Source: Bacillota bacterium (lineage in GTDB: Bacteria; Bacillota; Limnochordia; DTU087). From it: a DNA stretch of 41,673 nucleotides. Location: NCBI GenBank assembly GCA_012798695.1, contig JAAZMR010000007.1:1-41673 (forward strand). The letters run 5' to 3'. The notes under the pieces were generated by a model. It had not been told where the DNA came from, did not search any database, and saw only the letters and a program-made list of their open reading frames with translations. Position 1 is the first letter of the stretch, and the number at the start of each line of letters is the position of its first letter. Positions 1,293 through 26,156 of the stretch are shown one piece after another. The translations under genes and the position numbers were made by a program.

Positions 1293-1314
1293 CGTCTACA
1301 CCCCCTTGCACTGC

Positions 1315-1782
1315 CTATTGCACCACCAGTTCAGTGAAATAGACATTGGCTATGCTTCCTTCCGAAAGCAGTCCAGAAATTGCTCTGCCTAACTCCTGGC
1401 GCAGTTTCTCCATCCCAGCCGCTCCTGATATGTCCTCTTGTGTCTTGGTTCGCAAAATGCTGATCACGGCATCCCGGACCTGTGGATCTCGGCGAGCTAG
1501 CTCTGCTATGCACTTCTTATCGGTTACTTCTACCACCAAACCGGTGCGCACAAATCGAGGCGAGAACCCTTGAGGCACCATCAGGTTAACTGTGAATTCA
1601 CCTACTTGATGAACAGGACCAAACTGGCCCTTATCCGGCTCCTCTTGTCCCACTGCTGCTACTTCCACTGACGAACGTGAAAAAACTAGAAAAGTGACGT
1701 ATGCACTGCCCACAGCAGCAATAATGACGAGGGCCACCGCCATGATAATAACTTTCAGATCAATCTCGAATTTCTCCGCCAC
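1315..1782 (-). CDS. fliL: Flagellar basal body-associated protein FliL
   Basis: FliL is a single-pass inner membrane protein that surrounds the stator units and supports motor torque. The protein has a short cytoplasmic N-terminus, one membrane helix (roughly residues 10-32, rich in I, V and A) and a periplasmic or external domain. That domain includes the FliL-like stretch GEFTVNLMVPQG and a C-terminal region ending in VYFTELVVQ. At about 155 residues it is of normal length. The GTG at 1782 is preferred because GAGAGG lies 9 bases upstream. The ATG at 1791 directly abuts that ribosome site and is less likely. It sits between motB and the C-ring gene, so stator, FliL and switch are encoded consecutively. 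Confidence 0.9.
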   Translation of the reverse strand: MAEKFEIDLKVIIMAVALVIIAAVGSAYVTFLVFSRSSVEVAAVGQEEPDKGQFGPVHQVGEFTVNLMVPQGFSPRFVRTGLVVEVTDKKCIAELARRDPQVRDAVISILRTKTQEDISGAAGMEKLRQELGRAISGLLSEGSIANVYFTELVVQ

Positions 1783-1796
1783 TCGGGACATCCTCT

Positions 1797-2615
1797 CTAG
1801 TCCATCGGTAAGTCCTTGTGATCACCATTTTCAGCGGTCTCTTCCGCCCTGTTAGCCTGTGTTTCTACAGGACGAGGTTCAGCATAGGCAAGCCCCAATC
1901 GCAGTATCACTAGATCGACACGCCGGTTGCGAGCCTTCCCGACCACAGTTTCATTTGTATCTACAGGCCTGTATTCGCCATACCCAGCTGCCGAGAGCCG
2001 CTCTGGATCTAAGTGCATCTCTTCGACCAAAAAGCGAATCACGCTAGTTGCCCTAGCAGTAGATAGCTCCCAGTTGGAGGGAAAACGCTCTGTGTGGATG
2101 GGTAGATTATCGGTATGGCCTTCCACCCGCACGTGGTTGGGCAATGGCCTAAGAATTTCCGCTACCTGTTTGAGTATCGGCAAGGCGTCAGCTCGGATAT
2201 CTGCCTTACCCAGATCAAAAAACGCCCGATCGGCAAATCTGACTACCAAACCCCGCTCTTCGGTAAACAGTTCCACTGTACCAGGCAACTGACCCTCTGC
2301 AATGAGGGACTGTACTTCCTCGTACAAGGCTTGTATTTGCTGTATCTCTTTCTCCGAAATATCGAAGGCACTATCAATATCGATGGTTCCTTCATTGACC
2401 GCTGGCATATTGCTAATTGTCTTCCCGCCATCGAGAACTCCCAAAGTACCTTGGAAAGCAGCGATAATAGCCCGAAACTTCTGCACATCCACGGTAGAGA
2501 AAGAGTACAGAAGCACGAAGAAGGTCAATAGAAGCGTCACCATGTCCGCATAGGTAGTCATCCACGCAGGAGCACCTCGCTTTGATGGTTTGGGCCTACG
2601 TCTGTAACTAGACAT
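1797..2615 (-). CDS. motB: Flagellar motor stator protein MotB
   Basis: MotB pairs with MotA to form the ion-conducting stator and anchors it to peptidoglycan. The 272-residue protein has a basic N-terminal tail, then one membrane helix with the motif WMTTYADMVTLLLTFFVLL. Asp24 is in the position of the essential ion-binding aspartate. The C-terminal half (about residues 125-240) is an OmpA-like peptidoglycan-binding domain with VEGHTDN, NWELSTARA and KARNRRVDLVI. The ATG overlaps the end of motA by 8 bases, which indicates translational coupling. A ribosome site (GGTGAG) lies inside the motA end. The pore helix resembles the sodium-type proteins PomB and MotS (FFVLLYSFS) more than classic proton-type MotB, but ion choice cannot be settled by reading alone. 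Confidence 0.95.
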   Translation of the reverse strand: MSSYRRRPKPSKRGAPAWMTTYADMVTLLLTFFVLLYSFSTVDVQKFRAIIAAFQGTLGVLDGGKTISNMPAVNEGTIDIDSAFDISEKEIQQIQALYEEVQSLIAEGQLPGTVELFTEERGLVVRFADRAFFDLGKADIRADALPILKQVAEILRPLPNHVRVEGHTDNLPIHTERFPSNWELSTARATSVIRFLVEEMHLDPERLSAAGYGEYRPVDTNETVVGKARNRRVDLVILRLGLAYAEPRPVETQANRAEETAENGDHKDLPMD

Positions 2616-3429
2616 TGGTTCTCACCGTCCGTCTACCTATCCGCTCAGCTCTTTCTTCCTCTTCTGTTGGCGGTACCTTATTCCTCTGTTGTGGCGGCAA
2701 GAAAGCAGTCAGCTTCTCTTCTACCAAACGCGGATTCTCACCTGCCTGAATCGACAAGATCCCTTCTAACATGATCTGACGATACAGCACCTCTTCGTCA
2801 CTGCGGTTGCGCAGTTTGCCTGCTATAGGCAGAAATACCAAGTTGGCCAGAACCGAACCATACAAAGTGGTGATCAGAGCTAGGGCCATACCCGGAGCGA
2901 TTTTCTCTGCATCATCGATATCGGCCAGCATGTTGATCAGTCCAATCAACGTACCTATCATACCAAAGGCTGGGGCATATGCCCCCATATCCTCGAAAAT
3001 CCCCTGGCCAGCCCGATGGCGTTCTTCTTGGAAGGCCAATTCTATCTCGAGGACATTGCGCACCAAATCGGGGTCGGTACCATCAACTATGAGTTGAATC
3101 CCTTTGCGCAAGAAGTTGTCTTCAAGTTGTGCAGCCTCTTCTTCCATCGCCAACAGGCCTTCGCGGCGAGCTTTCTCTGCCAACGCAACTAATTGATCGA
3201 TTAGCTCTCGGCCCGAATAGCCCCGATCTGTAAAAGCTACTCTGACCATGCCGAACACTCTATAAAGATCAGACAGCGAATGATTGACCAAGGTGGCGGC
3301 TATGGTGCCCCCAAGCACAACCAAAAGAGATGGCACATTCACAAATCCCCGCAAACTGCCGTCTACCGCAATCGCAACTGCCAAGAGCGTAACCCCTGAG
3401 ACGATCCCGATTAATGTCGCTAGATCCAT
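2608..3429 (-). CDS. motA: Flagellar motor stator protein MotA
   Basis: MotA is the membrane subunit of the stator that turns ion flow into torque on FliG. The protein begins MDLATLIGIVSG, the usual N-terminus of Bacillota MotA and PomA. It has four hydrophobic segments, a large cytoplasmic loop between the second and third, and the hallmark AYAPAFGMIGTLIGLI of the third helix. Length from this ATG is 273 residues, normal for the family. A longer frame opens at GTG 3474, but its extra 15 residues have no family counterpart. The ribosome site for the ATG is weak (AAGG only 2 bases away), so the true start is less certain than the identity. An eight-G run lies just upstream on the coding strand. 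Confidence 0.9.
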   Translation of the reverse strand: MDLATLIGIVSGVTLLAVAIAVDGSLRGFVNVPSLLVVLGGTIAATLVNHSLSDLYRVFGMVRVAFTDRGYSGRELIDQLVALAEKARREGLLAMEEEAAQLEDNFLRKGIQLIVDGTDPDLVRNVLEIELAFQEERHRAGQGIFEDMGAYAPAFGMIGTLIGLINMLADIDDAEKIAPGMALALITTLYGSVLANLVFLPIAGKLRNRSDEEVLYRQIMLEGILSIQAGENPRLVEEKLTAFLPPQQRNKVPPTEEEERAERIGRRTVRTNV

Positions 3430-3536
3430 AACCTTCGGACGGATCCAAATGCCGCCCACGCCCCCCCCTGACACGGGGCCTTCCGACGCCTACCCCGCTA
3501 CTTGTGACACACCAAACCCTTAGCTGTTTCGGGTGC

Positions 3537-3568
3537 CCGGGGGAGGGAAATCCCTATCCCTCTCCCGG
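3537..3568 (-). other. Stable hairpin between flgE and motA
   Basis: Two 12-base arms, 3537-3548 and 3557-3568, pair with a single G-U wobble around an 8-base loop. The hairpin starts about 23 bases after the flgE stop. On the coding strand it is not followed by a T run, so it is a poor rho-independent terminator. It could shield the 3' end of the upstream transcript or lower motAB expression relative to the basal body genes. That role is inferred; the pairing itself is visible. Confidence 0.6.
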
Positions 3569-3590
3569 ACAATGAGTTCGCATACTGTTA

Positions 3591-5108
3591 TTAACGCTTC
3601 AAGTTAACCAATTCCTGCAGCATCTCATCTGAGGTTGTAATAATCCGAGAATTAGCCTGAAATCCTCTCTGGGTGATAATCATATCAGTAAACTCCCGCG
3701 ATAGATCCACATTGCTCATCTCCAGAGAACCAGGAGTGAGCTTGCCATTTGCCCCTCTACCTGGCTGTCCCACCTCTGGTTCTCCTGAGTTAGCGGACAT
3801 CACGAAAGTGGTATCTCCGGCTCGCAAAAGCCCACCGGGATTACTGAATACGGCAGTTGCCACCTGCCCCAAGGCTTCAGTTAGTCCATTGGAGTATTCA
3901 CCAATGATAGTCCCGGACTCATCGACACTATAGCCGATCAGTGTTCCTTGCGGATATCCATCCTGGCTCTTAAAGACCAGAGTCCCCTCAGCCGCATTTT
4001 GCACAACCGCCGCTAGATCCGGCATAATCTGCACAGGGTTGGCACCCTCTGGATGAAACTGCAGAGGATCACCGGAAACACTTACCATGTTGCCCCGGGC
4101 ATCGAAGGTGACTGTACCTTCTCCATCAGTACCTGCAGCACCGATCGCCTCCCACTGCCAGGTGCTCGTATCATCGGTGACTCGCGTTTTTGTGAAGATG
4201 AAATTGACTGGATGGGTATTGCCCAAAGAGTCAAAGACATCTACAGTCTGAGTTATCTGGGGTGGCCGCAGTGTGGCTGTTGCCACGGGATCTGTTTTCC
4301 CTGATTCTTCAATTGTTACTGAGCCTATCTTTGTTTGCTCACCGTTGGCAATGATATTGAACGTCGTCGTGCCTGGGCCTGTCAGCAACTGGGCCTCCAA
4401 TTGACCAGCAACATATGACAACTCAAATGAATCGCTCACTGTGGGATCCATCTGTGATGTGATCGCAAGCTTCCATTTGCCAAACTCGTCTTCTTCAGTT
4501 ATCTCTACATCGTATCTTGCATCACTTGTGTCGGTAATCACTGAGTTGTCAAGCTCCCAAAGGCCGTTCAGCCTGGAGTCCAAGTTGCCACCAAATTTGA
4601 CAGTGGTGGTGGCGATGGGATTGATGGTTTTCCCCATAGGTATCTCCAGAGGCTCCAGCTCTCGGTTGATATCGATGATACCACCCGTTGCCTTCCAACC
4701 CATCACCTTCATCCCATTTATACTGCTAATCAGGGAACCATCGCGCTCAACACCGAACAAGCCCGCTCTAGTATAGAAACGCCGAGAGCCGTCAGACAAG
4801 ACAAAAAACCCGTTGCCCTCAATGGACATGTCTGTCTGTCTGCCAGTCACCTCAGGACTGCCCTGGGTGTGATCTGTCTCAATAGCTCCTAGTGCCATGC
4901 CCAGTCCTATCTGCATGGGGTTTACTCCACCCCGCCCCCCTTGGGGGCTGCTCGCTGCCTGCAATGTCTGACTCAAGATGTCTCTAAAAGTGACCTGACT
5001 GCTCTTAAACCCAATAGTATTTACATTGGCTATGTTGTTGCCAATGACATCCATTCTTATCTGGTGATTCTTCAAAGCCGAAACACCGGAAAAGAGGGAT
5101 CGCATCAT
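3591..5108 (-). CDS. flgE: Flagellar hook protein FlgE
   Basis: FlgE polymerises into the hook, the flexible joint between basal body and filament, after export through the flagellar secretion system. The 505-residue protein has the rod/hook N-terminal signature (SLFSGVSALKNHQIRMDVIG followed by NNIANVNTIGFKSS). A central variable part follows (residues about 140-400). The C-terminal signature SLEMSNVDLSREFTDMI then QRGFQANSRIITT is present, with a coiled end rich in leucine. A tandem ATG pair marks the start, with GAGG 5 bases before the first ATG. The gene follows flgD and the TIGR02530-type gene, the order usual in Bacillota. No flbD/swrD gene separates it from motA. Confidence 0.95.
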   Translation of the reverse strand: MMRSLFSGVSALKNHQIRMDVIGNNIANVNTIGFKSSQVTFRDILSQTLQAASSPQGGRGGVNPMQIGLGMALGAIETDHTQGSPEVTGRQTDMSIEGNGFFVLSDGSRRFYTRAGLFGVERDGSLISSINGMKVMGWKATGGIIDINRELEPLEIPMGKTINPIATTTVKFGGNLDSRLNGLWELDNSVITDTSDARYDVEITEEDEFGKWKLAITSQMDPTVSDSFELSYVAGQLEAQLLTGPGTTTFNIIANGEQTKIGSVTIEESGKTDPVATATLRPPQITQTVDVFDSLGNTHPVNFIFTKTRVTDDTSTWQWEAIGAAGTDGEGTVTFDARGNMVSVSGDPLQFHPEGANPVQIMPDLAAVVQNAAEGTLVFKSQDGYPQGTLIGYSVDESGTIIGEYSNGLTEALGQVATAVFSNPGGLLRAGDTTFVMSANSGEPEVGQPGRGANGKLTPGSLEMSNVDLSREFTDMIITQRGFQANSRIITTSDEMLQELVNLKR

Positions 5109-5234
5109 AGTTGCCTCAACTCCTTTTCATCCCCCGGGTAGGGACCGCTTCCATCGCTCCGCGGCTCCTAGAGGCCTCCCTCCGGTCCAGCCCCTTGACC
5201 ATTTCCCCGGGATGACTCAATCTGGTTTTCGTAA

Positions 5235-5630
5235 TCAATCTGTCAGTACCGCACTATCGATCTGTGTGAAGACGTTCTCTTTAGCAGAATCTCTGTCGAT
5301 TACAGTGATTACAGTACGGTTCTTTACACTCACTACAAACACATTGCCTTCCATGACTATCAAAGATTCTCGGGCACCTTTGGCTGCCGCTTTTTCGACC
5401 GCTCCCTCCAGTTTGGTCAGCTCCTCTGGCCCCAAGACGATGTGGCGCTGTCTGAGTCTCGCTTGGGCATGGCCAGAAAACTTCAACTTCGAGGTCGCCA
5501 GCTTATTCTGTAGAACCTCTTGGAAAGTAGTACTATCGGTTGCTCGCTCACGTACAGGCCGCTCTATCCGTCGGTCTGTGACTGGCTGTGGCGGTATGGG
5601 TATACGCAATCCCGGTATCTTATTGGTCAT
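5235..5630 (-). CDS. TIGR02530-type flagellar operon protein
   Basis: This 131-residue soluble protein matches the small conserved family found between flgD and flgE in Bacillota flagellar operons (TIGR02530). Its conserved core runs from KFSGHAQARLRQR through AAKGARESLIVM to VSVKNRTVITVID and ENVFTQIDSAV. The N-terminal 40 residues are proline- and arginine-rich and look disordered. The ATG at 5630 has GAGGTGA 5 bases upstream and is preferred over a GTG three codons earlier. The exact role is not established; its fixed position beside the hook cap and hook genes suggests a function in hook assembly. No signal peptide or membrane segment is visible. Confidence 0.85.
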   Translation of the reverse strand: MTNKIPGLRIPIPPQPVTDRRIERPVRERATDSTTFQEVLQNKLATSKLKFSGHAQARLRQRHIVLGPEELTKLEGAVEKAAAKGARESLIVMEGNVFVVSVKNRTVITVIDRDSAKENVFTQIDSAVLTD

Positions 5631-5669
5631 GTTTATCACCTCTTCCTTTGCCCAATCGGTCCAGCTGAT

Positions 5670-6098
5670 CTAGCTGACTACCTTGATGGTTTGCACTTCC
5701 CAAAGGAAATAGGCTTGTCCGTCGACTACTAGCTGTGGCACCCCATCAGTGAACTGAATGGCACTCACCAAACCCGCGGCCGCCTGCTCAGTATCGGAGT
5801 TGACCACTACTACTTCCTTACCCAAAAGGCTAGTCGCTTGACTGATCAGCCCCATCTTCTCCTGGCTCTCAACGAATTTCTCCATTGCTTGAGCCAGGTT
5901 CTGGGTCTGCTCCAACGCAGTAAACTGAGCAAGTTGAGCAATAAAATCCTGGTCCTTAATCGGATTCATCGGATCCTGGTGTTTTAGCTGTGTTGTCAAA
6001 AGCCGCAGAAAATCATGCTTATCCAGCTGGTTTCTTTCCACAGCGGTCTGAGTTTCATGTCCAGTATATTGTGATGCACCGGTCTTCGCCACGTACAT
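5670..6098 (-). CDS. flgD: Flagellar hook-capping protein FlgD
   Basis: FlgD caps the growing hook and is needed for FlgE polymerisation; it is exported and later discarded. The 142-residue protein contains the family N-terminal block FLRLLTTQLKHQDPMNPIKD and then QDFIAQLAQFTALEQ, followed by a short C-terminal region (LLGKEVVVV). It is short compared with enterobacterial FlgD (about 230 residues), as is common in Bacillota, because it lacks the tudor/FnIII-like C-terminal domains. The ATG at 6098 has an ideal GGAGGT site 6 bases away. The frame is open 13 codons further upstream to 6137, which would almost touch the fliK stop, but that start has no comparable ribosome site. Confidence 0.92.
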   Translation of the reverse strand: MYVAKTGASQYTGHETQTAVERNQLDKHDFLRLLTTQLKHQDPMNPIKDQDFIAQLAQFTALEQTQNLAQAMEKFVESQEKMGLISQATSLLGKEVVVVNSDTEQAAAGLVSAIQFTDGVPQLVVDGQAYFLWEVQTIKVVS

Positions 6099-6137
6099 GG
6101 CCTCACCTCCTACACCTGATCTCACGTGTAAGCTCAT

Positions 6138-8333
6138 CTATACCCTACAATCAATCGTGTTCCCCCAGAGGTATTGCCGGGGGCGGGTAGTTCCAGTGAT
6201 CGTGTCTGCCGCCTCTGCTTGAAGCCAACCTCCAGGCAGATTGTGGTTTGAGCCGCTGCTATAGGGCTCTCTGCCGTGCGAGCTGCCACCGCCTACTTGT
6301 ACAGATACGTCTTGTACATTCAGACCCTGCTGCATTAGTTGCTGCTTCAATTGCGGCAAACCAGCCTCGATCAAGCTCTTGACCGTGTGGCTTTCTGCCA
6401 TGAAGGCAGCTGAGACTATGCCATTATTGGTTGCGATCTTTACCTGCAAATCTCCCAGATGGTCAGGCTTTAGCTGCAAGCGGATCTCTCCATAGTCGCC
6501 CTTCATCTCTAATTGTACCCGATCGACAATCTGCTCTACTACTTGTCTTGCACTCACCGGGCCATGGGGTATAGGGTGCCGTGGACGAGCATCGGCCATA
6601 TGAGCCGATTGAGCAGAACGAGTATCCAGAGCCACTCCTGTTTGCCCTGCTTTCTCTGCATCCAGGCTTGTGCCACCTGTCTCTGATCGCTGAGGCGAAG
6701 AACCAATTGGTTCTTTTACATCCGATAGCCCATCATCGGATACCCATTGGCTTGAGGTGAGCACATCTTGGCCGAAACCTTCCAAGGCATGCGACCCGCC
6801 ATGAGAAGTATCTTCGTTCTCTGTAGAGCCCGCAGGAATCGATATCTCGCTAAAGTCCACCCTTGGTGAAACGTTTTGCTCCATCACCCTAATCGATTCC
6901 GGATGATCAGCCTCGGCCTGGGCGCTAATCCCGTCACGCCCTGCTCGAACTCCTGCGGTTGGATGGGACAGTGGTTCCTCTTCATCGGTGGCTTTCAAGA
7001 GTTGCTTCACATGCTCGGGACTAAGTCCACTCATGCTCCAGGAAGCTGCTGAAGATTCGAGGCCGTCTCTCGCAGCTGTGTCTCCACTACCGTAGAAACT
7101 GCCCTCTCCATCCTCCGCGGCATGCAGCAAAGATAGGTCTGGTGTTACATCGTGGGCCATGGTTTTCGCATATGTCATCCCTGCTGCCGCCTCGTCTGCT
7201 GGATATATAGTTTCTGACTTACTGCCTGCATTTGTGGGGTGCTTATCCCCCAACCCCACCACCCTCGCCAGGACCCCCAGCTCCCCAGCAGCTGGGTTAG
7301 CTGCTTCTGGCTGAATTCCCTGGATGAGTATGTCCCCCGGGTCTAGTGCATCTCCAGTCGAGGCCGGATTTCTATCACTCATACCATCTGGCAGAATGGT
7401 CTCACCTCCAAAAGCGGCGGATGCACCCATGCCATCTAGGTTCATCTGCAAAGCCGCTTCCATGGCTGGGTTTGCCTTTATGGAAAACAGCGATCGCCCA
7501 CTGGTCAGTCGGGCTCGACTGTTCAGGTGGTCCCCGGTACCGACCATCAGTCCTCTATAGCTTTCCGCCAATAGCGGCCATCTGGTGCCATCTCGGAAAA
7601 GGCCTTTCAGGTCACCAAGAGAACGGAAGCTGGGAGTAGACATAAAGCCGCGCTCACCTTGGACAGCAGCCACTTGGGACCCAACCATACTCGGAAAACC
7701 GGAGTCTGGTGACAGAATGCTCCCCATTTCCGCCTGCAACGGTTTCTCTAAGCCCAGGGCGGCCAGAATACCGTTTGGTGAGCTGAGTTCATTTAGGGCC
7801 ACATCGGTTCCGCTTTCGACGGATGCAACTGCTTCAATCCCATCCCATGGCATTGGGGTGGCCTGTTGGAGCAACACCTGGCGCATGGCCTCCCAGGACT
7901 CCCGCTCACCATAAAGTGTCTCTAAAGCAGTCAACACTCTTGTGGCGGTCGACAGATCGCTTTCCATACTGTTTACTCTCGAATGTGCCGGATCACCGGC
8001 ATCATTCAAAGGTAGACCAGTGAGCCAGCCCCCCAAGCCCAGGTTGTGCAGCTGCTGCAGGTAGGCCGCCAGATCAGTTGGGTGATCACCATATCGCTTA
8101 GCGACAGCCTCTTTTTCCCTGGTAATTGTCGCCTCCTCGCTTGAGCAAGCCTCTCCTTCGTCATGGATCCCATTACCTGGTGTTGCTTCTGCACGTAGCA
8201 GTTGCATAATCCGTTCAAGCTCGGCTTCAAAAGGATCGGTTCCCAGAGTACCGGCAGTGTCCTTGAATCCCACGGGTTGGAGTGTCCCGCCTGCTTTTGT
8301 GAGATGCGGAACTGCTGAATCTGCTATTATCAC
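6138..8333 (-). CDS. fliK: Flagellar hook-length control protein FliK
   Basis: FliK measures hook length and switches export from hook to filament substrates. The 731-residue protein starts at a GTG with a near-perfect AAAGGAGGTGA site. The first about 590 residues are of low complexity, rich in S, G, A, E and D, with no clear domain, as expected for the secreted ruler part. The conserved C-terminal switch domain lies near residues 600-690 and includes GEIRLQLKPDHLGDLQVKI and a helix ending QQLMQQGLNVQDVSV. It is longer than Salmonella FliK (405 residues), but length varies widely in this family. It sits between the motE/ylxF-like gene and flgD, the conserved order. Confidence 0.92.
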   Translation of the reverse strand: MIIADSAVPHLTKAGGTLQPVGFKDTAGTLGTDPFEAELERIMQLLRAEATPGNGIHDEGEACSSEEATITREKEAVAKRYGDHPTDLAAYLQQLHNLGLGGWLTGLPLNDAGDPAHSRVNSMESDLSTATRVLTALETLYGERESWEAMRQVLLQQATPMPWDGIEAVASVESGTDVALNELSSPNGILAALGLEKPLQAEMGSILSPDSGFPSMVGSQVAAVQGERGFMSTPSFRSLGDLKGLFRDGTRWPLLAESYRGLMVGTGDHLNSRARLTSGRSLFSIKANPAMEAALQMNLDGMGASAAFGGETILPDGMSDRNPASTGDALDPGDILIQGIQPEAANPAAGELGVLARVVGLGDKHPTNAGSKSETIYPADEAAAGMTYAKTMAHDVTPDLSLLHAAEDGEGSFYGSGDTAARDGLESSAASWSMSGLSPEHVKQLLKATDEEEPLSHPTAGVRAGRDGISAQAEADHPESIRVMEQNVSPRVDFSEISIPAGSTENEDTSHGGSHALEGFGQDVLTSSQWVSDDGLSDVKEPIGSSPQRSETGGTSLDAEKAGQTGVALDTRSAQSAHMADARPRHPIPHGPVSARQVVEQIVDRVQLEMKGDYGEIRLQLKPDHLGDLQVKIATNNGIVSAAFMAESHTVKSLIEAGLPQLKQQLMQQGLNVQDVSVQVGGGSSHGREPYSSGSNHNLPGGWLQAEAADTITGTTRPRQYLWGNTIDCRV

Positions 8334-8409
8334 CTAATCACCTCCTTTCAGGGCACATGGCTAATGCCTTGTTTTATATATCAAGGGCTGATCAGCCCCT
8401 GCTGCCAAG

Positions 8410-8982
8410 CTACTTCTTGTTAGTTAAGGCCATGCGGGTGATTTCCGCAGCCAATTTCGGTTCCAAATTGGTAAGAATATCTCCGGCTATTTCCGGATCC
8501 ATTTCCGCCAGAATAAAGGCAATCATCTCCGGTCGCAGTTGGCTCATAATCGCGGCTGCGTCCTTCCCCTTCATCTCCGCATAGATGGATCGCAATCGTT
8601 CAAGCTCCAGAAATCCTGCTCGGGCTGCTTCAATCTCTTGCCTTAGCTTGAGCAGCTGTTCTGTCTCATGATCCACTTCGCTCTTTTGTCGGGCAAGCTG
8701 CTTTTCTCTAGCTGCCAGGGCTTCTGTCCTGGCAGCTAGCTCCAACTCTCTTTGGACAAGTTCTCCCTTTTCTATCTCCAATGCGGCTAGCGCGTCTTCT
8801 ATTTCCTTCTCGACTGCCAACCCCGCATGGTATGTCTCTAGGTAAGGAGCCAATGCCGGTATGGTTTCCATACGCTGCACCACCATAGGCCTCAGATCGA
8901 TGACTCCTGTGGCGTTCAGCATGAAAGCAGCTAGAACGACAGCCATAAGCAAAACTATAATGGCGAGAATCCACTTTCTCAC
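8410..8982 (-). CDS. MotE/YlxF-like flagellar protein with MgtE-N-type domain
   Basis: This 190-residue protein has an N-terminal membrane helix (residues about 4-27), then a long coiled coil (about 55-130) rich in E, A, R and L. It ends in an MgtE-N-like helical domain with the stretches MKGKDAAAIMSQL, IAFILAEMDPEIAGDIL and LEPKLAAEITRM. This is the architecture of YlxF of Bacillus and of the MotE family, which act with stators or with the export apparatus. The start overlaps the fliJ end by 4 bases, and fliK follows, exactly where ylxF lies in the Bacillus fla/che operon. The biochemical role in this organism is inferred from family and position only. Confidence 0.85.
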   Translation of the reverse strand: MRKWILAIIVLLMAVVLAAFMLNATGVIDLRPMVVQRMETIPALAPYLETYHAGLAVEKEIEDALAALEIEKGELVQRELELAARTEALAAREKQLARQKSEVDHETEQLLKLRQEIEAARAGFLELERLRSIYAEMKGKDAAAIMSQLRPEMIAFILAEMDPEIAGDILTNLEPKLAAEITRMALTNKK

Positions 8983-9434
8983 GAAAAAGGCGCCTCCTGC
9001 CGAACAAATCTAGTTGCTGCCACGTCATCAAGCTCTCGCTGTTCCTTGCCCAAGACTTCCTCATGCCACTTGGCATACTCCTTCTCCCGCATTTTCTCTA
9101 GGATCTCACGTTTGCGGCGGGCAGCGAGAAACTCGTCTGTCTGACGTCTCACTGATATTTGCAGCTGATCAACAACAGCCTGTTGTCGGAATATCCCTTG
9201 GTCTAGTACTTCCAACCAGCGCTGATAGGCCTCCAACTCACCAATATCCAGCTCTCCGTGGTTTCTTTCCCGCCACTGAACTAGCTGCTGCTGCCGATGC
9301 TGCTTCTGTGCAGCAAGCTTCCTCCTAGCCTCAGCCTCTCGTGACTGAAGATGCCCTAGTTCCGCCGCGGCCTGCTGCTCGAGGCGTTCCCGAAGTTCAA
9401 GTAACTTCTGAAGAGAAAACTGAAAACGCACCAA
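8979..9434 (-). CDS. fliJ: Flagellar export chaperone-like protein FliJ
   Basis: FliJ is the small coiled-coil stalk that links the FliI ATPase ring to the export gate protein FlhA. The 151-residue protein begins FQFSLQKLLELRERLEQQAA, the typical FliJ opening. It is almost entirely alpha-helical with heptad-like spacing of leucines and many charged residues. The TTG at 9434 has AGGAGG 7 bases upstream; the adjacent GTG is an alternative. It follows fliI after about 30 bases and overlaps the next gene by 4 bases, so the two are probably coupled in translation. Confidence 0.9.
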   Translation of the reverse strand: MVRFQFSLQKLLELRERLEQQAAAELGHLQSREAEARRKLAAQKQHRQQQLVQWRERNHGELDIGELEAYQRWLEVLDQGIFRQQAVVDQLQISVRRQTDEFLAARRKREILEKMREKEYAKWHEEVLGKEQRELDDVAATRFVRQEAPFS

Positions 9435-9465
9435 GGCCTTTCCTCCTGCAAAAGCAAATCTCCAT

Positions 9466-10794
9466 CTACATATTGGTCAGCTCCAGGAGCTGTGAAAGCG
9501 CTGAATCCCAGGCCACACTCTCAGCAATATCTTGCTGTAGGAAGGCTTTGATCGGGTCTATCAAGCTGATAGACCGGTCTACCCGGGGGTTACTACCACT
9601 CCTATACGCCCCGATGTTGATCAAATCCTCCATTTCCTGGTATGTAGCGAGCATCTCCTTCACTTGGGTCGCCACTTGCTGATGCTCCCGAGAGACCACC
9701 TCGGGCATGACGCGGCTAACACTGGCCAAAATATCAATGGCTGGATAGTGCCCCCGATCTGCCAGTCTTCGGGTCAACACTATGTGCCCATCCAGAATCC
9801 CCCGCACTGTATCGGCCACTGGTTCATTCATGTCATCACCTTCGACCAATACTGTATAGAAAGCTGTAATGGTGCCCTCCTTGCCGGGGCCGGTACGTTC
9901 CAGAAGCTGAGGTAGTATAGCAAATACCGATGGCGGATATCCCCTAGTGGCTGGTGGCTCGCCCACGGCCAAACCAACTTCCCTTTGGGCCGTGGCAAAT
10001 CGAGTAACTGAGTCCATCAGGAAAAGCACGTCATAGCCCTGATCGCGAAAATACTCGGCCACCGCCGTAGCAGTATAAGCGCCCTTAAGCCGAATCAAGG
10101 CCGGCTGATCAGATGTAGCTACGATCACGACCGAACGAGCTAACCCATCTGGCCCCAAATCCCGCTCAATAAACTCTCTGACTTCGCGGCCCCGCTCCCC
10201 GACCAAAGCAATCACATTGATGTCAGCATTTGTATTACGAGCCATCATGCCTAGCAGGGTGCTTTTGCCTACACCACTACCAGAGAAAATCCCTAGGCGC
10301 TGTCCCCTCCCACAGGTCAATAGGCCATCGATTGCTCGCACACCGACAGACAGCGGTTCTCGAATTCGCTGCCGCTCCAAAGGCTCTGGTGGCCGATTAT
10401 ACAGCGGATACTGCTGCGCTCCGTCAAGCGGGCCTTGACCATCCATGGGCTGCCCTAAACCATCTAGTATCCTGCCCAGCAGGCTGTGCCCAACCTGTAC
10501 CACGAGCCGCTGCCGACTAGCCTCTACTAGACTGCCTGGACCTACCCCCGCTATATCTCCTAAAGGCATGAGAATCAGCCGCTGATCGCGAAAACCTACT
10601 ACCTCTGCCGGAACACCCTGTCCAGAGCCAGCGAATATGTGACAGATCTCTCCCAGATTAGCCCGGGGGCCGTTGGCTTCAATGGTAAGCCCAATCACTT
10701 GAGTTACCTCTCCGTATTCCATGACATCTTCACAACCCTTGATCCGAGCAAGATATTTGTCCAAGGGGAATTCATAGCCCGACTTCATTTTCAC
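9466..10794 (-). CDS. fliI: Flagellum-specific export ATPase FliI
   Basis: FliI is the ATPase of the flagellar type III secretion system and is related to the F1 beta subunit. The 442-residue length is normal. The Walker A loop SGSGVGKST lies at residues 171-179, and a Walker B strand DVLFLMDSVTRFA lies near 253-265. The family stretch GEPPATRGYPPSVFA is present. The GTG at 10794 overlaps the fliH stop; the ATG two codons later at 10788 is an equally reasonable start with GGTGAG 5 bases before it. Its place between fliH, its inhibitor, and fliJ, its stalk partner, supports the assignment. Confidence 0.97.
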   Translation of the reverse strand: MKMKSGYEFPLDKYLARIKGCEDVMEYGEVTQVIGLTIEANGPRANLGEICHIFAGSGQGVPAEVVGFRDQRLILMPLGDIAGVGPGSLVEASRQRLVVQVGHSLLGRILDGLGQPMDGQGPLDGAQQYPLYNRPPEPLERQRIREPLSVGVRAIDGLLTCGRGQRLGIFSGSGVGKSTLLGMMARNTNADINVIALVGERGREVREFIERDLGPDGLARSVVIVATSDQPALIRLKGAYTATAVAEYFRDQGYDVLFLMDSVTRFATAQREVGLAVGEPPATRGYPPSVFAILPQLLERTGPGKEGTITAFYTVLVEGDDMNEPVADTVRGILDGHIVLTRRLADRGHYPAIDILASVSRVMPEVVSREHQQVATQVKEMLATYQEMEDLINIGAYRSGSNPRVDRSISLIDPIKAFLQQDIAESVAWDSALSQLLELTNM

Positions 10795-11582
10795 TCACCA
10801 TCCAACAGCTGAAGCAGTGACTTACTCACATTGAGGAATCGGGTTTCCAGCCGGGCATCTACTCTCCCGAATGCGGTCTCCAGCAAACACCCTCCTGGTT
10901 CAACACTAGCATCCTCGATCAATTCCCAGCCGGCGCAACCACCATCGGCACCATGCCCTCCATGTTCGGCTAACTCCCCTAAGGACTCCAACACCAGCGG
11001 ATGTACGCGAATCACGATATGGTCTTCACTTTGCACCTGCTGGGTTACATCCCTGACGATATTCATTGTGACTTCAGGAGCTTCCTCAATCTTCTCTGAA
11101 ATGATCTTTTCAGCAATGGCGAGACTTAGTACCACGATATCTCTTTCGGCTTCAGCAATGGTATGGCTGCGTATCTTCTGGCATTCGCGAGCCATCTGTG
11201 CAATGGTCGCCATTTCCTCCTGCAGCTCAGCTTGGACCATGGCCTCAGCTTCGGCCCGCCCTGCAGCATAGCCATCGTCATACCCAGCACTACGGCCTGC
11301 TGCAAAGCCTGCTTTCTGAGCTTCGTCCCGTAAGCGCGCAGCTTGAGCTTCGGCGGCTGTTACCAAATCCACAACCCGCTCTTCGGCCTGACGAAGCAAG
11401 TCTGCAGCTCGGATGCGAGCTGTACGAATTACTGTCGCCGCATCAACAATGGCGGCTGCCGGATCCGGCTCACGGCTGTTGTTTGACTCTGGAGATAGAA
11501 GAGGTGGGCGACCGCTATGTTGATCACTATGGCTATTTCCGGTCAACAGTGGCCGAAAATTGGCCTTAATAATCTTAGACAA
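10791..11582 (-). CDS. fliH: Flagellar assembly protein FliH
   Basis: FliH binds FliI, restrains its ATPase and tethers it to the C-ring. The protein has a long helical N-terminal half rich in A, E and R with GxxxG-like repeats (AGRSAGYDDGYAAGRAEAEA). A C-terminal domain related to the V-ATPase E subunit follows (LSLAIAEKIISEKI, then HIVIRVHPLVLESL and GGCLLETAFGRVDARLETRF). The TTG at 11582, giving SKIIKANFRPL, has GGAGG 9 bases upstream and overlaps the fliG end. An ATG at 11591 abuts the ribosome site and is less likely. The frame opens further to 11681 but that part lies inside fliG and has no family resemblance. Confidence 0.9.
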   Translation of the reverse strand: MSKIIKANFRPLLTGNSHSDQHSGRPPLLSPESNNSREPDPAAAIVDAATVIRTARIRAADLLRQAEERVVDLVTAAEAQAARLRDEAQKAGFAAGRSAGYDDGYAAGRAEAEAMVQAELQEEMATIAQMARECQKIRSHTIAEAERDIVVLSLAIAEKIISEKIEEAPEVTMNIVRDVTQQVQSEDHIVIRVHPLVLESLGELAEHGGHGADGGCAGWELIEDASVEPGGCLLETAFGRVDARLETRFLNVSKSLLQLLDGE

Positions 11583-12588
11583 TAATCTCATCCTCCCCGC
11601 CCCGAGATATGATGATCTCTCCGGTCTCTTCCAGACGTCGAATCGTAGAAACCACTCTTTGCTGGGCTTCCTCCACATCACGCAACCTTACCGGGCCCAT
11701 GTATTCAATATCTTCCTTTAGCATGTCACCGGCTCGTTTGGACATGTTCTTGTAGATACGGCTGGAGACTTCTTCACTTGCAGTTTTCAAGGCCAAGGCC
11801 CAGTCTCTCGTATCCACTTCCCGGATTACCTGCTGTATAGCCCGATCATCAAGTTTCACAATATCCTCAAACATGAACATCCGTTTGCGGATTTCATCTG
11901 CCAGCTCCGGATCTTCTTCTTCCAAGGTATCCATGATCGTTCTTTCAGTCACTCTATCCACACGGTTTAGCACTTCTACCGTTGCCTCAACACCACCCGC
12001 CGCGGTAAAGTCTTGAATCATGAAAGAAGAGAGCTTCCGTTCCAAGGTACCCTCGATCTCTCCCAGCACATCGGGACTTGTGCGGTCTAGGGTTGCCAAA
12101 CGGCGGGCAACATCGGCTTGCCGTTCCGCGGGCAGGGCCGAAAGAATAATTCCTGCTTGCTCTGGCTGTAGGTAAGCCATAATCAGAGCTATGGTCTGGG
12201 GATGCTCATTTTGAATGAAGTTTAGCAATTGTGCAGGGTCAGCCTTGCGGGCAAAATCAAAGGGCCGCACTTGCAGCGAGGCCGTCAACCTAGTAATCAC
12301 TTCATGAGCACGCTCTTCCCCTAATGCCTTCTCCAATACCTCTTTGGCGTAATCGATACCACCTTGAGATATGTACTCACTGGCAAGGCACAATTCATGA
12401 AACTCAGACATGATGGCATCCTTGTATTCAGGCTCTACCCGCGGCAGAGCCGCTATTTCTAAAGTCAGGTCTTCAATTTCATCTTCTCTAAGATGACGAA
12501 ATACCCGGGCGGATACATCTGGACCCAATGTGATAAGCAAGATAGCTGCCTTTTGCTTTCCTGTCAGTTCAGAGAATCTCATTGACAT
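11575..12588 (-). CDS. fliG: Flagellar motor switch protein FliG
   Basis: FliG is the rotor protein that interacts with MotA and is mounted on the FliF ring. The family landmarks are all present: an N-terminal LTGKQKAAILLITLG block, the EHPQTIALIMAYL motif of the middle domain, and MFMFEDIVKLDDRAIQQVI. The C-terminal torque helix region contains the charged residues that face the stator (RAGDMLKEDIEYMGPVRLRD). The ATG at 12588 is chosen because GGAG lies 9 bases before it; the ATG two codons later also fits. Length is about 337 residues, normal for FliG. It follows fliF as in almost all flagellar operons. Confidence 0.97.
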   Translation of the reverse strand: MSMRFSELTGKQKAAILLITLGPDVSARVFRHLREDEIEDLTLEIAALPRVEPEYKDAIMSEFHELCLASEYISQGGIDYAKEVLEKALGEERAHEVITRLTASLQVRPFDFARKADPAQLLNFIQNEHPQTIALIMAYLQPEQAGIILSALPAERQADVARRLATLDRTSPDVLGEIEGTLERKLSSFMIQDFTAAGGVEATVEVLNRVDRVTERTIMDTLEEEDPELADEIRKRMFMFEDIVKLDDRAIQQVIREVDTRDWALALKTASEEVSSRIYKNMSKRAGDMLKEDIEYMGPVRLRDVEEAQQRVVSTIRRLEETGEIIISRGGEDEIIV

Positions 12589-12674
12589 GCCTCTGGGCTC
12601 CAATCCTCGAGCACGGCTTTTGGAGTTCTGCCCTCTTCCCCCTTCTATCTAGTACCGCATCACACAGTTACGTA

Positions 12675-14228
12675 CTATTCCTCGGCCATCCATGCCCGAA
12701 TCAATCTCGCCAAGCCTTCTGGGTCTTCACCCGCCATGCGCTCTATCTCACGTCTCACCCGCAGACGGCGCTCTTCCTCCGGTGATAGCGGCCTTTCCAC
12801 GATTTCCTCTTCCTCTTCAGCCAATGTATCGGCAGGTGGCAGCGGCTCTTCTACGGGTACGGGTTGCCTTGCCCGCCGCCCTATGATGAAGAGCAACAGC
12901 AATAAGGCTGTCGCAACCAGCAAGACCAGCTTCCAGTCCCAACCCCTAGCCCTCACTAATCCTTCCGGTGCTCTGACAGGGGTGTCCCAATCAGCCGCGA
13001 AAGGCATACTTTCCACTTGTACCACATCTCCCCGTTCCGGCTGCAATCCTGCCGCAGAAGACACCATAGCTAACAGTTTCTCTTTCGCATCTTCGGCTAG
13101 TTCGCCATCAACCCAGACGGCCACTGATAGATTCTTTACCTCACCGGGAGCCTTCACTCGGTATTTCTCACTGACACTGATCTCGTAATTGCGAGTTACT
13201 TCTTCTTTTTCATACTCTGACTCCCCGGTGCCCACTGGAGCTGTATATCCCGGTACATTAGAGGTTACGCCTGGGACTCCGCCCCCTCCGGTACCCCGGT
13301 ACATTTCACTGCGGGTTTCCTCACTAATGACTACACCCTTACTGCCCACCACGGGTTCACTACGCTTTTCTCGCAGTTCTTCATAGTTGAAATCCAGGCT
13401 GGCCTTTACTCGCACAACTACCCGGCCGAGCCCGAACACTCGCTCTAACATAGCTTGAATACTGCGTTCTACAGCATTGGCGTAATTGCGCTCAATCTCC
13501 AGTTGCTGCAATACTTGCCCACTATTTACGACTCCCGAAGTCGATGTTAGGCGATCGGACAGCACATTACCACGATTATCTATGATTGTTACATTCTCCG
13601 GGAGCAATCCCTCAACACTGCTGGCTACCAGATGTGCTATACCCCGAATTTGGTTTTCCTGCAAAGTATGGGTCTGTTTCAATACTAAAAAAACCGAAGC
13701 GGTGGCTGGGTTCTGGGCTTCGATGAATAGACTGTTTTCAGGCAAGACTATATGTACCCGAGCATTATCAATGGCTTCCAGGCCCATAAGTGTCCGGGTC
13801 AGTTCACCCTGGAGAGCCCGTAGGAGCCGGATGCGCCGGTCAAAATCAGTCTCAGTTAGGGATGTGTGATCCCAAAGTTCCAGGCCGACAACACCTCCAC
13901 GGGGCACGCCTTCACTGGCCAGCTGCATTCTCACCTCGTGTACCTTTGCTTGGGGGACCAGGACAGCACTGCCTTGCTGGCCAATCTGATAGGGAATACC
14001 CTGGTCCTTTAAGAATTCGATAACCTCTGCCGCATCTTCGGTCTGCATTTTTGTGAAAACCGGAACATAATCAACACTAGTCATGCGTACGATTCCAAAG
14101 ATGAGGAACAGAAGGACTCCTCCCGTTAGGCCGAGTACCAGCCAGCGGCGAGGCTTATCCATCCCCCGCCAAATGTCGGACACCTGCTGCCTCAGATGCG
14201 AGAAAAACTCGTTCACACACGCCACCAT
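12675..14228 (-). CDS. fliF: Flagellar MS-ring protein FliF
   Basis: FliF forms the MS-ring, the membrane base on which the rotor and export apparatus assemble. The product of about 517 residues has a first membrane helix near residue 30 (WLVLGLTGGVLLFLIFGIV) and a second near residue 440 (LVLLVATALLLLLFII). Between them are the PrgK/EscJ-like ring-building motifs (GIPYQIG, LQGELTRTLMGLEAIDNARV, HIVLPENSLF, NYEISVSEKY). The acidic C-terminus binds FliG. The start is uncertain: ATG 14228 is used, and TTG 14252 or a GTG four codons after 14228 are possible, because the ribosome site is diffuse. Neighbours are fliE and fliG. Confidence 0.95.
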   Translation of the reverse strand: MVACVNEFFSHLRQQVSDIWRGMDKPRRWLVLGLTGGVLLFLIFGIVRMTSVDYVPVFTKMQTEDAAEVIEFLKDQGIPYQIGQQGSAVLVPQAKVHEVRMQLASEGVPRGGVVGLELWDHTSLTETDFDRRIRLLRALQGELTRTLMGLEAIDNARVHIVLPENSLFIEAQNPATASVFLVLKQTHTLQENQIRGIAHLVASSVEGLLPENVTIIDNRGNVLSDRLTSTSGVVNSGQVLQQLEIERNYANAVERSIQAMLERVFGLGRVVVRVKASLDFNYEELREKRSEPVVGSKGVVISEETRSEMYRGTGGGGVPGVTSNVPGYTAPVGTGESEYEKEEVTRNYEISVSEKYRVKAPGEVKNLSVAVWVDGELAEDAKEKLLAMVSSAAGLQPERGDVVQVESMPFAADWDTPVRAPEGLVRARGWDWKLVLLVATALLLLLFIIGRRARQPVPVEEPLPPADTLAEEEEEIVERPLSPEEERRLRVRREIERMAGEDPEGLARLIRAWMAEE

Positions 14229-14279
14229 CCCTATCGTACCAGCCCCTACCAAGTGGGGCTGCAGTCATCATGAGCCGCA

Positions 14280-14576
14280 CTAAATCTGCATCCGCATGAT
14301 CTCCTGATACGCCTCCACCAACTTGTTGCGAATGGAAACGGTCAAGTCCAGGGCCAGACGTGCTTTTTCTGCTGCTAATATCACATCATGGATTTCCACC
14401 GAGGCATGCCCGCCAATAAAGGCTTCAGTCAGCTGATCTGCCTCTTCTTGCAGGGCATCGACTGAAAGCAGTGTTTTCTCCAAAATCCTGGAAAAACCCG
14501 GGTGCCCTTGTTTCTGCATAGAATCCAAACCCGATGGGGCGAGTGGCAACTGACTTGTTATGGCCGAAACTTTCAT
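14280..14576 (-). CDS. fliE: Flagellar hook-basal body complex protein FliE
   Basis: FliE is the adaptor between the MS-ring/export gate and the rod. The 98-residue protein contains the typical FliE helix pair: LTEAFIGGHASVEIHDVILA, then AEKARLALDLTVSIRNKLVE and YQEIMRMQI at the end. The ATG at 14576 is preceded by AGGGGTGG and gives the normal family length. The frame remains open to 14621 without support. It lies between flgC and fliF, the conserved position. Confidence 0.95.
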   Translation of the reverse strand: MKVSAITSQLPLAPSGLDSMQKQGHPGFSRILEKTLLSVDALQEEADQLTEAFIGGHASVEIHDVILAAEKARLALDLTVSIRNKLVEAYQEIMRMQI

Positions 14577-14639
14577 CTCTACCACCCCTACGCTCTGACG
14601 TGACTCGACATTAAGCACCAATAAATACCATCTTCACCC

Positions 14640-15062
14640 TTAACCACGACCGATTTCCAGGGCTTTGAGTGCCATATTCCGCGAAGAATTGATGACAGTG
14701 ATATTTGCCTCATAAGCCCGAGTGGCGGTGATTAGATCTACCATTTCTGTTACAACATTGACATTGGGATACTCAACATAGCCTTCTGGATCAGCATCTG
14801 GGTGTCCTGGCTCATAGGCCCGCCTTCCTGGCGACAGATCCGCATGAATCCCGACAACCCGTACTCCGCCTCCCCGAAAACCGGCTCTTGTCGGCTGTCC
14901 TTCTACCCGGGTAGCAAACACGGGAACCTGGCGTTGATACGAGCCCCCCGCTTCAGTGCGTGTACTATTGGCATTTGCTAAGTTGTTCGCAATGGTATCC
15001 ATTCTCAGCCGCTCAGCGGTAAGTGCAGAACCGCTGATCCTCAAAGTCTGGAAGAAGCTCAT
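14640..15062 (-). CDS. flgC: Flagellar basal-body rod protein FlgC
   Basis: FlgC is one of the proximal rod proteins exported during basal body assembly. The 140-residue protein has the N-terminal rod signature SGSALTAERLRMDTIANNLA followed by NANST. The FlgC C-terminal block VEYPNVNVVTEMVDLITATR then AYEANITVINSSRNMALKAL is also present. The ATG has GGGAGG upstream. It follows flgB after about 30 bases. Confidence 0.97.
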   Translation of the reverse strand: MSFFQTLRISGSALTAERLRMDTIANNLANANSTRTEAGGSYQRQVPVFATRVEGQPTRAGFRGGGVRVVGIHADLSPGRRAYEPGHPDADPEGYVEYPNVNVVTEMVDLITATRAYEANITVINSSRNMALKALEIGRG

Positions 15063-15091: not shown

Positions 15092-15505
15092 TCATCCAAC
15101 TCTCTCGCTGATCACTGTTCTCAGCTGTCTTATCTGCCTGGTAAGCTGCTCTGCTAGAACCTGATAGCGGACAGCTGTCTCCGTAAGAGCAACCATCTCT
15201 TGCTCAATGTCCACATTATTACCATCATACCGCATGGTGGAAGTATTGTCTGTGACAATACGGGGGGTCGCCTCGCTTCCCCCACCCCCGAGATGACGGG
15301 CATGGGTCTTGCGCACCGTAACCGAATTACCCTTTCTCTCCAGCTCACTCGTTAGATGAGCCGCGAAGTCCACATCCTGTCGTTTGTATGCAGGTGTATT
15401 TGCATTAGCATAATTATGAGCCCTAACCTGAAACCTCAGACTTTCCGCACTGAGGGCTTTGTGCAGCAAGTTACCCGTTCTTCCTAAAAGGTTTAACCCC
15501 GCCAC
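15092..15505 (-). CDS. flgB: Flagellar basal-body rod protein FlgB
   Basis: FlgB is a proximal rod protein and here the first gene of the flagellar operon. The protein shows LHKALSAESLRFQVRAHNYA and NANTPAYKRQDVDF in the N-terminal part. The C-terminal FlgB block NNVDIEQEMVALTETAVRYQ is followed by a leucine-rich helix. The GTG at 15505 is preferred, giving AGLNLLGRT after the initiator Met and 137 residues. AGAGGAGGG lies 6 bases upstream, whereas the ATG at 15511 touches that ribosome site. The leader in front of it carries a cyclic-di-GMP riboswitch and a terminator, so this gene and all those downstream are expected to respond to that second messenger. Confidence 0.95.
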   Translation of the reverse strand: MAGLNLLGRTGNLLHKALSAESLRFQVRAHNYANANTPAYKRQDVDFAAHLTSELERKGNSVTVRKTHARHLGGGGSEATPRIVTDNTSTMRYDGNNVDIEQEMVALTETAVRYQVLAEQLTRQIRQLRTVISERVG

Positions 15506-15552
15506 TGCCATCCCTCCTCTCATCCAAGGACATGCAAGTTTATGCCTACCAT

Positions 15553-15600
15553 AAAAACGGGATTTAGGTCAATTACCAAAACCGCTAGACCCAAACCCCG
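15553..15600 (-). terminator. Rho-independent terminator of the riboswitch expression platform
   Basis: On the coding strand the arm CGGGGTTTGGGTC (15600-15588) pairs with GACCTAAATCCCG (15570-15558), a 13-base-pair stem with two G-U wobbles and a 17-base loop. TTTTTAT follows immediately (from 15557). This is a complete intrinsic terminator placed after the aptamer and about 50 bases before flgB. Its formation would stop transcription ahead of the flagellar operon. Confidence 0.85.
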
Positions 15601-15621
15601 ACAACAATCTCCCCAGGTCTA
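15586..15621 (-). promoter_or_regulatory. Antiterminator of the flagellar leader
   Basis: TAGACC (15621-15616) can pair with GGTCTA (15591-15586). The first arm shares three bases with the 3' strand of the aptamer closing stem (15624-15619). The second arm shares four bases (15588-15591) with the terminator 5' arm. The two folds therefore exclude each other. Ligand-bound aptamer should hold the first arm and let the terminator form. The pairing is seen in the sequence; the switching direction is inferred. Confidence 0.65.
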
Positions 15622-15710
15622 TTGGCAGTCCGGCTACCCTAGCCACTTTGGCAGCTTTAGGTCCGCAACTTTGCGTCTCCACCTTTCGATGGATTTGCCC
15701 TTGGCAATAG
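15619..15710 (-). ncRNA. Cyclic-di-GMP class I (GEMM-I) riboswitch aptamer
   Basis: The leader between hslU and flgB matches the GEMM-I pattern. The closing stem is CTATTG (15710-15705) with CAATAG (15624-15619). Then comes GGGCAAA and a short stem TCCATC/GGTGGA closed by a GAAA tetraloop, followed by the hallmark GACGCAAAG. A second stem contains CCTAAAG on one side and TAGGG on the other, resembling the tetraloop receptor, and GTAGCCGGACTGCC closes the fold. All hallmark segments appear in the correct order and spacing. GEMM-I RNAs bind cyclic-di-GMP and in Clostridioides difficile one precedes flgB. The G-rich GGGCAAA suits cyclic-di-GMP rather than the cGAMP-binding variant, but that needs testing. 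Confidence 0.92.
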
Positions 15711-15806: not shown

Positions 15807-17201
15807 TTACAAAATGAAGCGACTCAAATCTCGGTCTTCCACTATGTCAGACAATCGTTCGTTCACATATTCCTGATCAATCACAAAACTCGCACCCGGT
15901 TTCTCGGGAGCCTCAAAGGAGATTTCCTCCAACACTCGCTCCAAAACAGTGTGTAAGCGACGAGCCCCGATATTCTCCGTAGTCTCGTTTACCAAAACCG
16001 CTAAGGCTGCTAGTTCGTCGATGGCGTCTTCGGTAAAGGTCAGGCTGATATTTTCGGTCTCCAATAGAGCAATATACTGCTTAACCAGCGCATTTTCCGG
16101 TTCAGTCAAGATCCGGCGAAAGTCGGATTCGGTCAGGCTAGCAAGTTCCACCCTAATGGGAAACCTTCCCTGCAATTCAGGAATCAGGTCAGAGGGTTTG
16201 CTGTTATGAAAGGCCCCGGCTGCAATAAAGAGCATGTGCTCTGTCTTCACTGGGCCGTACTTCGTCATTACCGTGGAGCCCTCAACGATCGGAAGAATGT
16301 CCCGTTGTACTCCCTCTCGGGACACATCAGGCCCATAGCCCCCCTCTTTGGCCACGACCTTATCGATCTCGTCCAGGAAAATAATCCCATCATTCTCTGC
16401 CCGAGAAATGGCCTCTGCTTGCACCTCATCCATGTTGATCAACTTCTGAGCTTCCTCTTGCTGCAACAATCGCCGAGCTTCCCGGATCGTCACCTTGCGC
16501 TTTTTCTTCCGCTTGGGAAGCATGCCGCCAAACATGTCCTGAAGATTAATACCCATTTCCTCCATACCGGAACCACTAAAAACCTCCAGCATCGGGGGAG
16601 CGTTGTCTTCAATCTCGATCTCCACTAGGCTATCCTCAAGTTCTCCTGCCTTGAGGCGCTTGCGCACATCAGCCCTCTCTTGACGAATCCGCTCTATATC
16701 TGATGCCTGAATCGCTTTTTCATCCTGGTCTGGCCTGTGCCCGCCAAACAGCATCTCCAGCGGATTAAAAGCATGCTCTCTGCGGGGCAGCGGTACTAGG
16801 ATATCGACCAGGCGATCCTCTACTCCCCTGGCTGCCGGGGCCTCTACCTCAGACATGCGAACCGCCTTTACCATTCGAATACTAGTCTCCACCAGGTCAC
16901 GAACCATTGATTCCACATCTCGCCCGACATAGCCAACCTCAGTGAATTTCGTTGCTTCCACTTTTACAAACGGAGCCTCAGCCAGGCGAGCTAAGCGTCT
17001 TGCTATCTCTGTCTTCCCAACACCGGTAGGCCCAATCATCAAAATGTTTTTAGGCAACAATTCTTGGCGCAGATCCTCGGGCAGGTGATGACGTCGATAG
17101 CGGTTGCGCAAAGCGATGGCAACTGCTCTTTTGGCCTCATCCTGGCCAATAATGTACTTATCTAGTTCTGCGACTATTTCCCGTGGTGTTAGCACAGACA
17201 T
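15807..17201 (-). CDS. hslU: ATP-dependent protease ATPase subunit HslU (ClpY)
   Basis: HslU is the AAA+ unfoldase that feeds substrates to the HslV peptidase. The 464-residue length is normal. Walker [10 protein letters not shown] lies at residues 57-65, followed by the HslU-specific [20 protein letters not shown]. An inserted I-domain (about 110-240) is followed by Walker B with IIFLDEIDK, and the sensor and C-terminal helices end in LSRFIL, the docking tail for HslV. The ATG has GGGAGGGTGA upstream. It follows hslV by about 20 bases. In Bacillus codY comes next; here the flagellar riboswitch leader does. Confidence 0.97.
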
Positions 17202-26034: not shown

Positions 26035-26156
26035 GGTATCACCTAGAAGACAGGCTGGCATGTTCAGCCTATTTCATTACTGATTCTCTCATATGTTGGG
26101 TTTTCCTTCCTGAAGTGGTAGATTTCGACACATATTCTACAAATCCTGAGGGAAGT

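Follow-up and report, generated by a model that had tools for sequence, protein, structure and literature searches.

The window analysed here is a 41.7-kb stretch of DNA in which a predicted flagellar operon on the minus strand is preceded by a leader carrying a predicted riboswitch. The genes upstream of the leader are hslU, hslV and topA, the immediate neighbour being hslU (15807-17201, minus strand; TIGR00390, 657 bits). The coding region of flgB (15092-15505, minus strand; TIGR01396, 112.9 bits) probably begins with the GTG at 15505, a choice drawn from comparison of the leaders, since the Shine-Dalgarno sequence AGGAGGG at 15518-15512, read directly and kept in relatives, is well spaced from this codon and the frame of the ATG at 15511 is lost in one relative (G001). 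Neither ATG, at 15523 or at 15511, stands at a good distance from the Shine-Dalgarno sequence. Downstream of flgB on the same strand, Pfam matches give the order flgC, fliE, fliF, fliG, fliH, fliI, fliJ, a MotE-like gene, fliK, flgD, flagellar_put, flgE, motA, motB, fliL and a fliM-like gene (273-15062), up to the contig edge. A terminator scan of the flagellar stretch returned 17 weak sites on both strands, compared with 12.2 in shuffles, and no strong internal stop was apparent. It is plausible, and indeed likely, that the co-directional genes from flgB to the contig edge form one transcript, which would place the whole operon under the switch.

No codY gene lies between hslU and flgB in the window. 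The first-pass annotation had set the riboswitch in the place where codY is found in Bacillus, which holds as a statement of position only: codY is present elsewhere in the own genome, on C70 with 92.1 bits, as it is in 9 of the 10 family relatives, so that its loss or replacement by the riboswitch is ruled out by its presence elsewhere in 10 of the 11 family genomes. In UBA3570 the interval from hslU to the riboswitch is about 1 kb long and could hold a codY gene. The displaced codY of the own genome (on C70) has a gene for a GGDEF protein shortly upstream on the same strand.

The predicted sigma-H-type promoter

A block conserved in the family lies 40-70 nt upstream of the aptamer. A reading of the region from hslU to the aptamer as a small conserved ORF (GIHxGMWK-like) was rejected, the frame not being open in all relatives, and a promoter accounts better for the block. 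The motif AGGR-N17-GAA occurs with exact spacing in 17 of 19 flgB leaders (mean of 0.85 in dinucleotide shuffles), and in all 11 when one leader is taken per genus or family (shuffle mean 0.50). Because this spacing was picked after looking at the leaders, an independent test was made with a matrix built from 30 SigH-dependent promoters of Clostridioides difficile (Table 3 of PMC7438776). The matrix reached 16.9 bits at 15751-15724 on the minus strand (GCAGGAATT-N11-GTGGAAAA), more than at any other site on either strand of the window; 0.5% of shuffles reach this score. At least 14 bits were found in 14 of the 17 flgB leaders of the class that were tested, and at most 7.7 bits in the c-di-GMP-I leaders of Tad and secreted-protein genes. 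The site matches experimentally supported SigH promoters in both elements and in spacing (RnAGGAwwW, RnnGAAT); its -10 element GTGGAAAA is without the T of GAAT, as in several C. difficile SigH promoters. No match to a sigma-70 promoter was found near the aptamer in the scan. The flgB leader is thus predicted to be transcribed from a sigma-H (Spo0H)-type promoter.

Other sites on the minus strand score nearly as high with the same matrix (16.0-16.6 bits at 26149, 26109, 37162 and 23700), some of them just upstream of genes. The own genome encodes a canonical sigH (TIGR02859, 377.8 bits). A divergent SigH-like gene is located in the window between rnc and smc (37185-37886, minus strand), with 123 bits to TIGR02859, below the cut-off; counting L211, the genome has two SigH-like factors in addition to the canonical sigH.

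The aptamer and its likely ligand

The leader was earlier noted to hold the hallmark segments of GEMM-I, and a covariance-model check had been proposed; all segments quoted were found on the minus strand, and the Rfam covariance model RF01051 (c-di-GMP-I) matched with a high score at 15709-15621 (79.4 bits with an E-value of 3.8e-14, the model being covered in full from 1 to 87; curated cut-off 35 bits). This aptamer between hslU and flgB is the sole above-cut-off Rfam match in the window. In the RF01051 alignment the ligand-contact segments GGGCAAA, GACGCAAAG and CTGCC, with the ligand-contacting G, A and C, are all present, and the binding-site segments recur, slightly altered, in 11 flgB leaders of the family. 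The aptamer is closed by the P1 helix of 6 bp, formed by CTATTG (15710-15705) and CAATAG (15624-15619).

The base-selecting position, which we take to be that numbered G20 in Vc2, is G in the window aptamer and in the 11 family leaders. An A in place of this G is the mark of cGAMP sensors (GEMM-Ib), and cGAMP cyclases carry Ser in place of the Asp of GxxxGD. Six GGDEF domains were found in the own genome, and each of the five that are readable has an intact GGDEF together with the Asp of GxxxGD. Since the base-selecting G is kept and the GGDEF domains have both of these features, the ligand is likely c-di-GMP rather than cGAMP. Recognition of 3',3'-cGAMP would have a parallel in the Geobacter GEMM-I aptamers, whose ligand is cGAMP although their initial annotation was that of c-di-GMP sensors (PMC9262584), but the G in the window and in all 11 family leaders, and the Asp in five of the six GGDEF domains, make it extremely unlikely here.

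Terminator, antiterminator and predicted switching

The aptamer is followed by an intrinsic terminator, as first claimed, with a stem of 13 bp (15600-15588 with 15570-15558), a loop of 17 nt (15587-15571) and the U-tract UUUUU (15557-15553, read directly). A simple terminator scan did not detect it because the scan takes loops of 3-8 nt only. The hairpin is present in 11 of 11 family leaders, with 89.7% of the cells of its helix paired. Five pairs are changed on both sides across these leaders, a number reached by 2 of 500 shuffles, and the covariation score exceeds those of all 500 shuffles and of every slid version.

A competing helix of 10 bp is formed by TAGACCTGGG (strand A, 15621-15612) with TTTGGGTCTA (15595-15586) and continues by pairing of GCC (15626-15624) with GGT (15583-15581). 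It contains, within a longer helix, the TAGACC/GGTCTA antiterminator that the first-pass annotation had described as having bases in common with the closing stem and the terminator. It takes up part of the 3' strand of P1, the 5' arm of the terminator at 15595-15588 and the loop positions 15587-15586 and 15583-15581, so that it excludes both P1 and the terminator. The loop segment TTGGTAAT can also pair with the 5' side of P1. Another candidate antiterminator partner, the aptamer segment GACCTAAA, was rejected, its complement not being kept in relatives and the segment itself belonging to the aptamer consensus.

In RNA that ends with the terminator loop, the fold with the antiterminator was calculated at -49.8 kcal/mol and that with P1 at -40.7 kcal/mol, a difference of about 9 kcal/mol in favour of the antiterminator, whereas in full-length RNA P1 with the terminator is the minimum (-55.8 versus -50.7 kcal/mol); these secondary-structure energies omit tertiary contacts and the ligand, and P1 has only 6 bp. 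In the nascent window transcript the 3' strand of P1, extended by 12 nt, is expected to form 8.52 pairs with the 5' arm of the terminator, compared with 0.97 for shuffled linker and loop, and 0.7% of shuffles reach the window value. A plain duplex-energy test of the window against shuffled terminator arms was weaker (17% of shuffles as good). Summed over eight leaders with short linkers the pairing amounts to 60.1 (shuffles 32.7, sd 6.4, largest 49.0), which is support and not proof, the eight representing four related genera that are not independent; it is individually weak in G001, G004, G005 and G008 (fraction of shuffles 0.08-0.19). An antiterminator that excludes P1 and the terminator is predicted in 9 of the 11 family leaders. 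In the two exceptions, G006 and G010, pairing of the 3' strand of P1 with the terminator was not above that of shuffles; these leaders may use another antiterminator across their longer linkers, or their expression platform is different or misjudged.

It is considered very probable, from sequence and modelled folds, that the c-di-GMP-I riboswitch switches off transcription of the flgB flagellar operon and is preceded by a sigma-H-type promoter of its own. Transcription would start at about 15718, and RNA polymerase would then make the aptamer. At low c-di-GMP, P1 would not hold and 15621-15612 would pair with the 5' arm of the terminator (15595-15586) as it emerges; with the antiterminator formed, no terminator hairpin would arise and the operon would be read. 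At high c-di-GMP the ligand would hold P1 (15710-15705 with 15624-15619) and hide strand A, allowing the 13-bp terminator to form and the transcript to end near 15553 after about 165 nt. As the P1 favoured by the ligand removes a strand of the antiterminator, we infer that c-di-GMP should raise termination in the cell. The Rfam match, the flgB context, the conserved terminator and the mutually exclusive antiterminator all support the direction first suggested, in which the bound ligand frees the terminator.

The same riboswitch would be an ON switch if c-di-GMP prevented termination. Aptamers of the c-di-GMP-I type work in both directions, depending on the gene, and in the pilM cGAMP riboswitch, which is of the ON type, the strand that stabilises the aptamer belongs to the terminator (PMC9262584). 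Here, however, P1 (15624-15619) and the terminator (15600-15558) do not overlap and co-fold in the minimum-energy structure, the antiterminator alone overlapping P1, and promotion of flagella by high c-di-GMP would be contrary to the usual biology; an ON switch is considered highly unlikely. A decayed aptamer beside an ordinary terminator, serving as an insulator between hslU and flgB with no ligand control, would agree with the stable full-length fold of the terminator alone. This reading is judged exceedingly improbable, as the aptamer is full-length and high-scoring with all binding-site segments, is kept in 11 of 11 genomes and retains the antiterminator complementarity in most of them, and as an insulating terminator would silence the promoter that is conserved between hslU and the aptamer.

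The predicted OFF switch resembles Cd1 (Cdi1_3) of C. difficile, a c-di-GMP-I OFF switch in the flgB leader (PMC6366702, PMC3649979, PMC9262584) that had already been brought up as the comparable case. In C. difficile, c-di-GMP lowers flgB expression and the terminated transcript has about 160 nt (PMC3649979), close to the 165 nt or so predicted here. The aptamer class, the target operon, the position in the 5' UTR, the intrinsic terminator and the predicted OFF direction are alike. The strand order P-A-T-H was measured for Cd1, with the terminator formed by T and H and the antiterminator by T, A and H (PMC9262584). The same order is found here, with an antiterminator drawn from the 3' strand that closes the aptamer and the 5' arm of the terminator, the comparison being one of strand order. 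In contrast to Cd1, the switch of the window follows hslVU, and its leader of about 210 nt has a predicted sigma-H-type promoter, whereas the flgB promoter of C. difficile is SigA-dependent (PMC7438776) and lies 496 bp ahead of the start codon (PMC3649979). The pilM riboswitch of Geobacter metallireducens (GEMM-Ib; PMC9262584) has a homologous aptamer fold and likewise controls transcription, but is an ON switch for cGAMP and differs in its strand logic and selectivity base. Vc2 of Vibrio cholerae, a translational OFF switch of GEMM-I (PMC9262584), has the same aptamer fold with P1 as the switching helix, but controls translation and not a terminator. The leader carries a genuine c-di-GMP-I riboswitch, which most likely switches off by termination and for which C. 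difficile is a clear precedent. This precedent does not extend to the predicted sigma-H-type promoter, the chief departure from the known case, or to the breadth of the association in the class. The C. difficile flgB riboswitch would thereby be extended to a little-studied class of Bacillota with a different predicted promoter input (sigma-H in place of SigA).

Distribution in the class and other c-di-GMP-I loci

Aptamers of the c-di-GMP-I type were found in 11 of 11 family genomes, each with one just before flgB, and in 58 of the 73 genomes sampled from the wider class. The gene directly downstream of the aptamer is flgB in at least five further families as well (G064, G061, G060, G059, G055, G018, G066 and G067) and in UBA3570, and because aptamers adjacent to flgB occur across the family and these further families, the association of riboswitch and flgB appears ancestral in the class. 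The flgB aptamer of G007 is assigned in clan competition to RF03167 (c-di-GMP-I-GGC; 64 bits against 59) in preference to RF01051.

The own genome has four c-di-GMP-I aptamers. A class-wide ancestral flagellar-operon leader with two keys, a sigma-H (transition-phase) promoter and a c-di-GMP-I OFF switch, with Tad pili and a secreted-protein/Wzz locus under the same signal and without a sigma-H site, is a proposal for and against which we see about equal weight. In that case the cell would make flagella only with sigma-H active and c-di-GMP low. A single second messenger, read by RNA sensors, would serve the flagella, the Tad pili and a Wzz-linked locus of one genome, so that the motile-to-sessile switch could be tested compactly in this lineage.

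A c-di-GMP-I leader precedes the genes for Flp pilin and TadE at eight loci, one of them in the own genome (C121). In this Tad leader GAAGGGUUUGCCU, downstream of the terminator, is complementary to the 5' segment AGGCAAACCCUUC of the aptamer over 13-15 nt (G-U allowed) in 7 of 8 family genomes; in the other c-di-GMP-I leaders tested the same complementarity has at most 9 Watson-Crick pairs (11 with G-U). Pairing of GAAGGGUUUGCCU with AGGCAAACCCUUC is a possible second, later switch that would open the aptamer. Tandem c-di-GMP-I aptamers (L004, then L003) are located in the own genome at 28726-29024 of C86, before the genes for a secreted protein of 154 aa and Wzz. A terminator comes after the first, and the second ends directly at the Shine-Dalgarno sequence GGAGGA. 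In this second aptamer a core pair is altered from C-G to U-A (GGTAAAC with GGCACAAAG).
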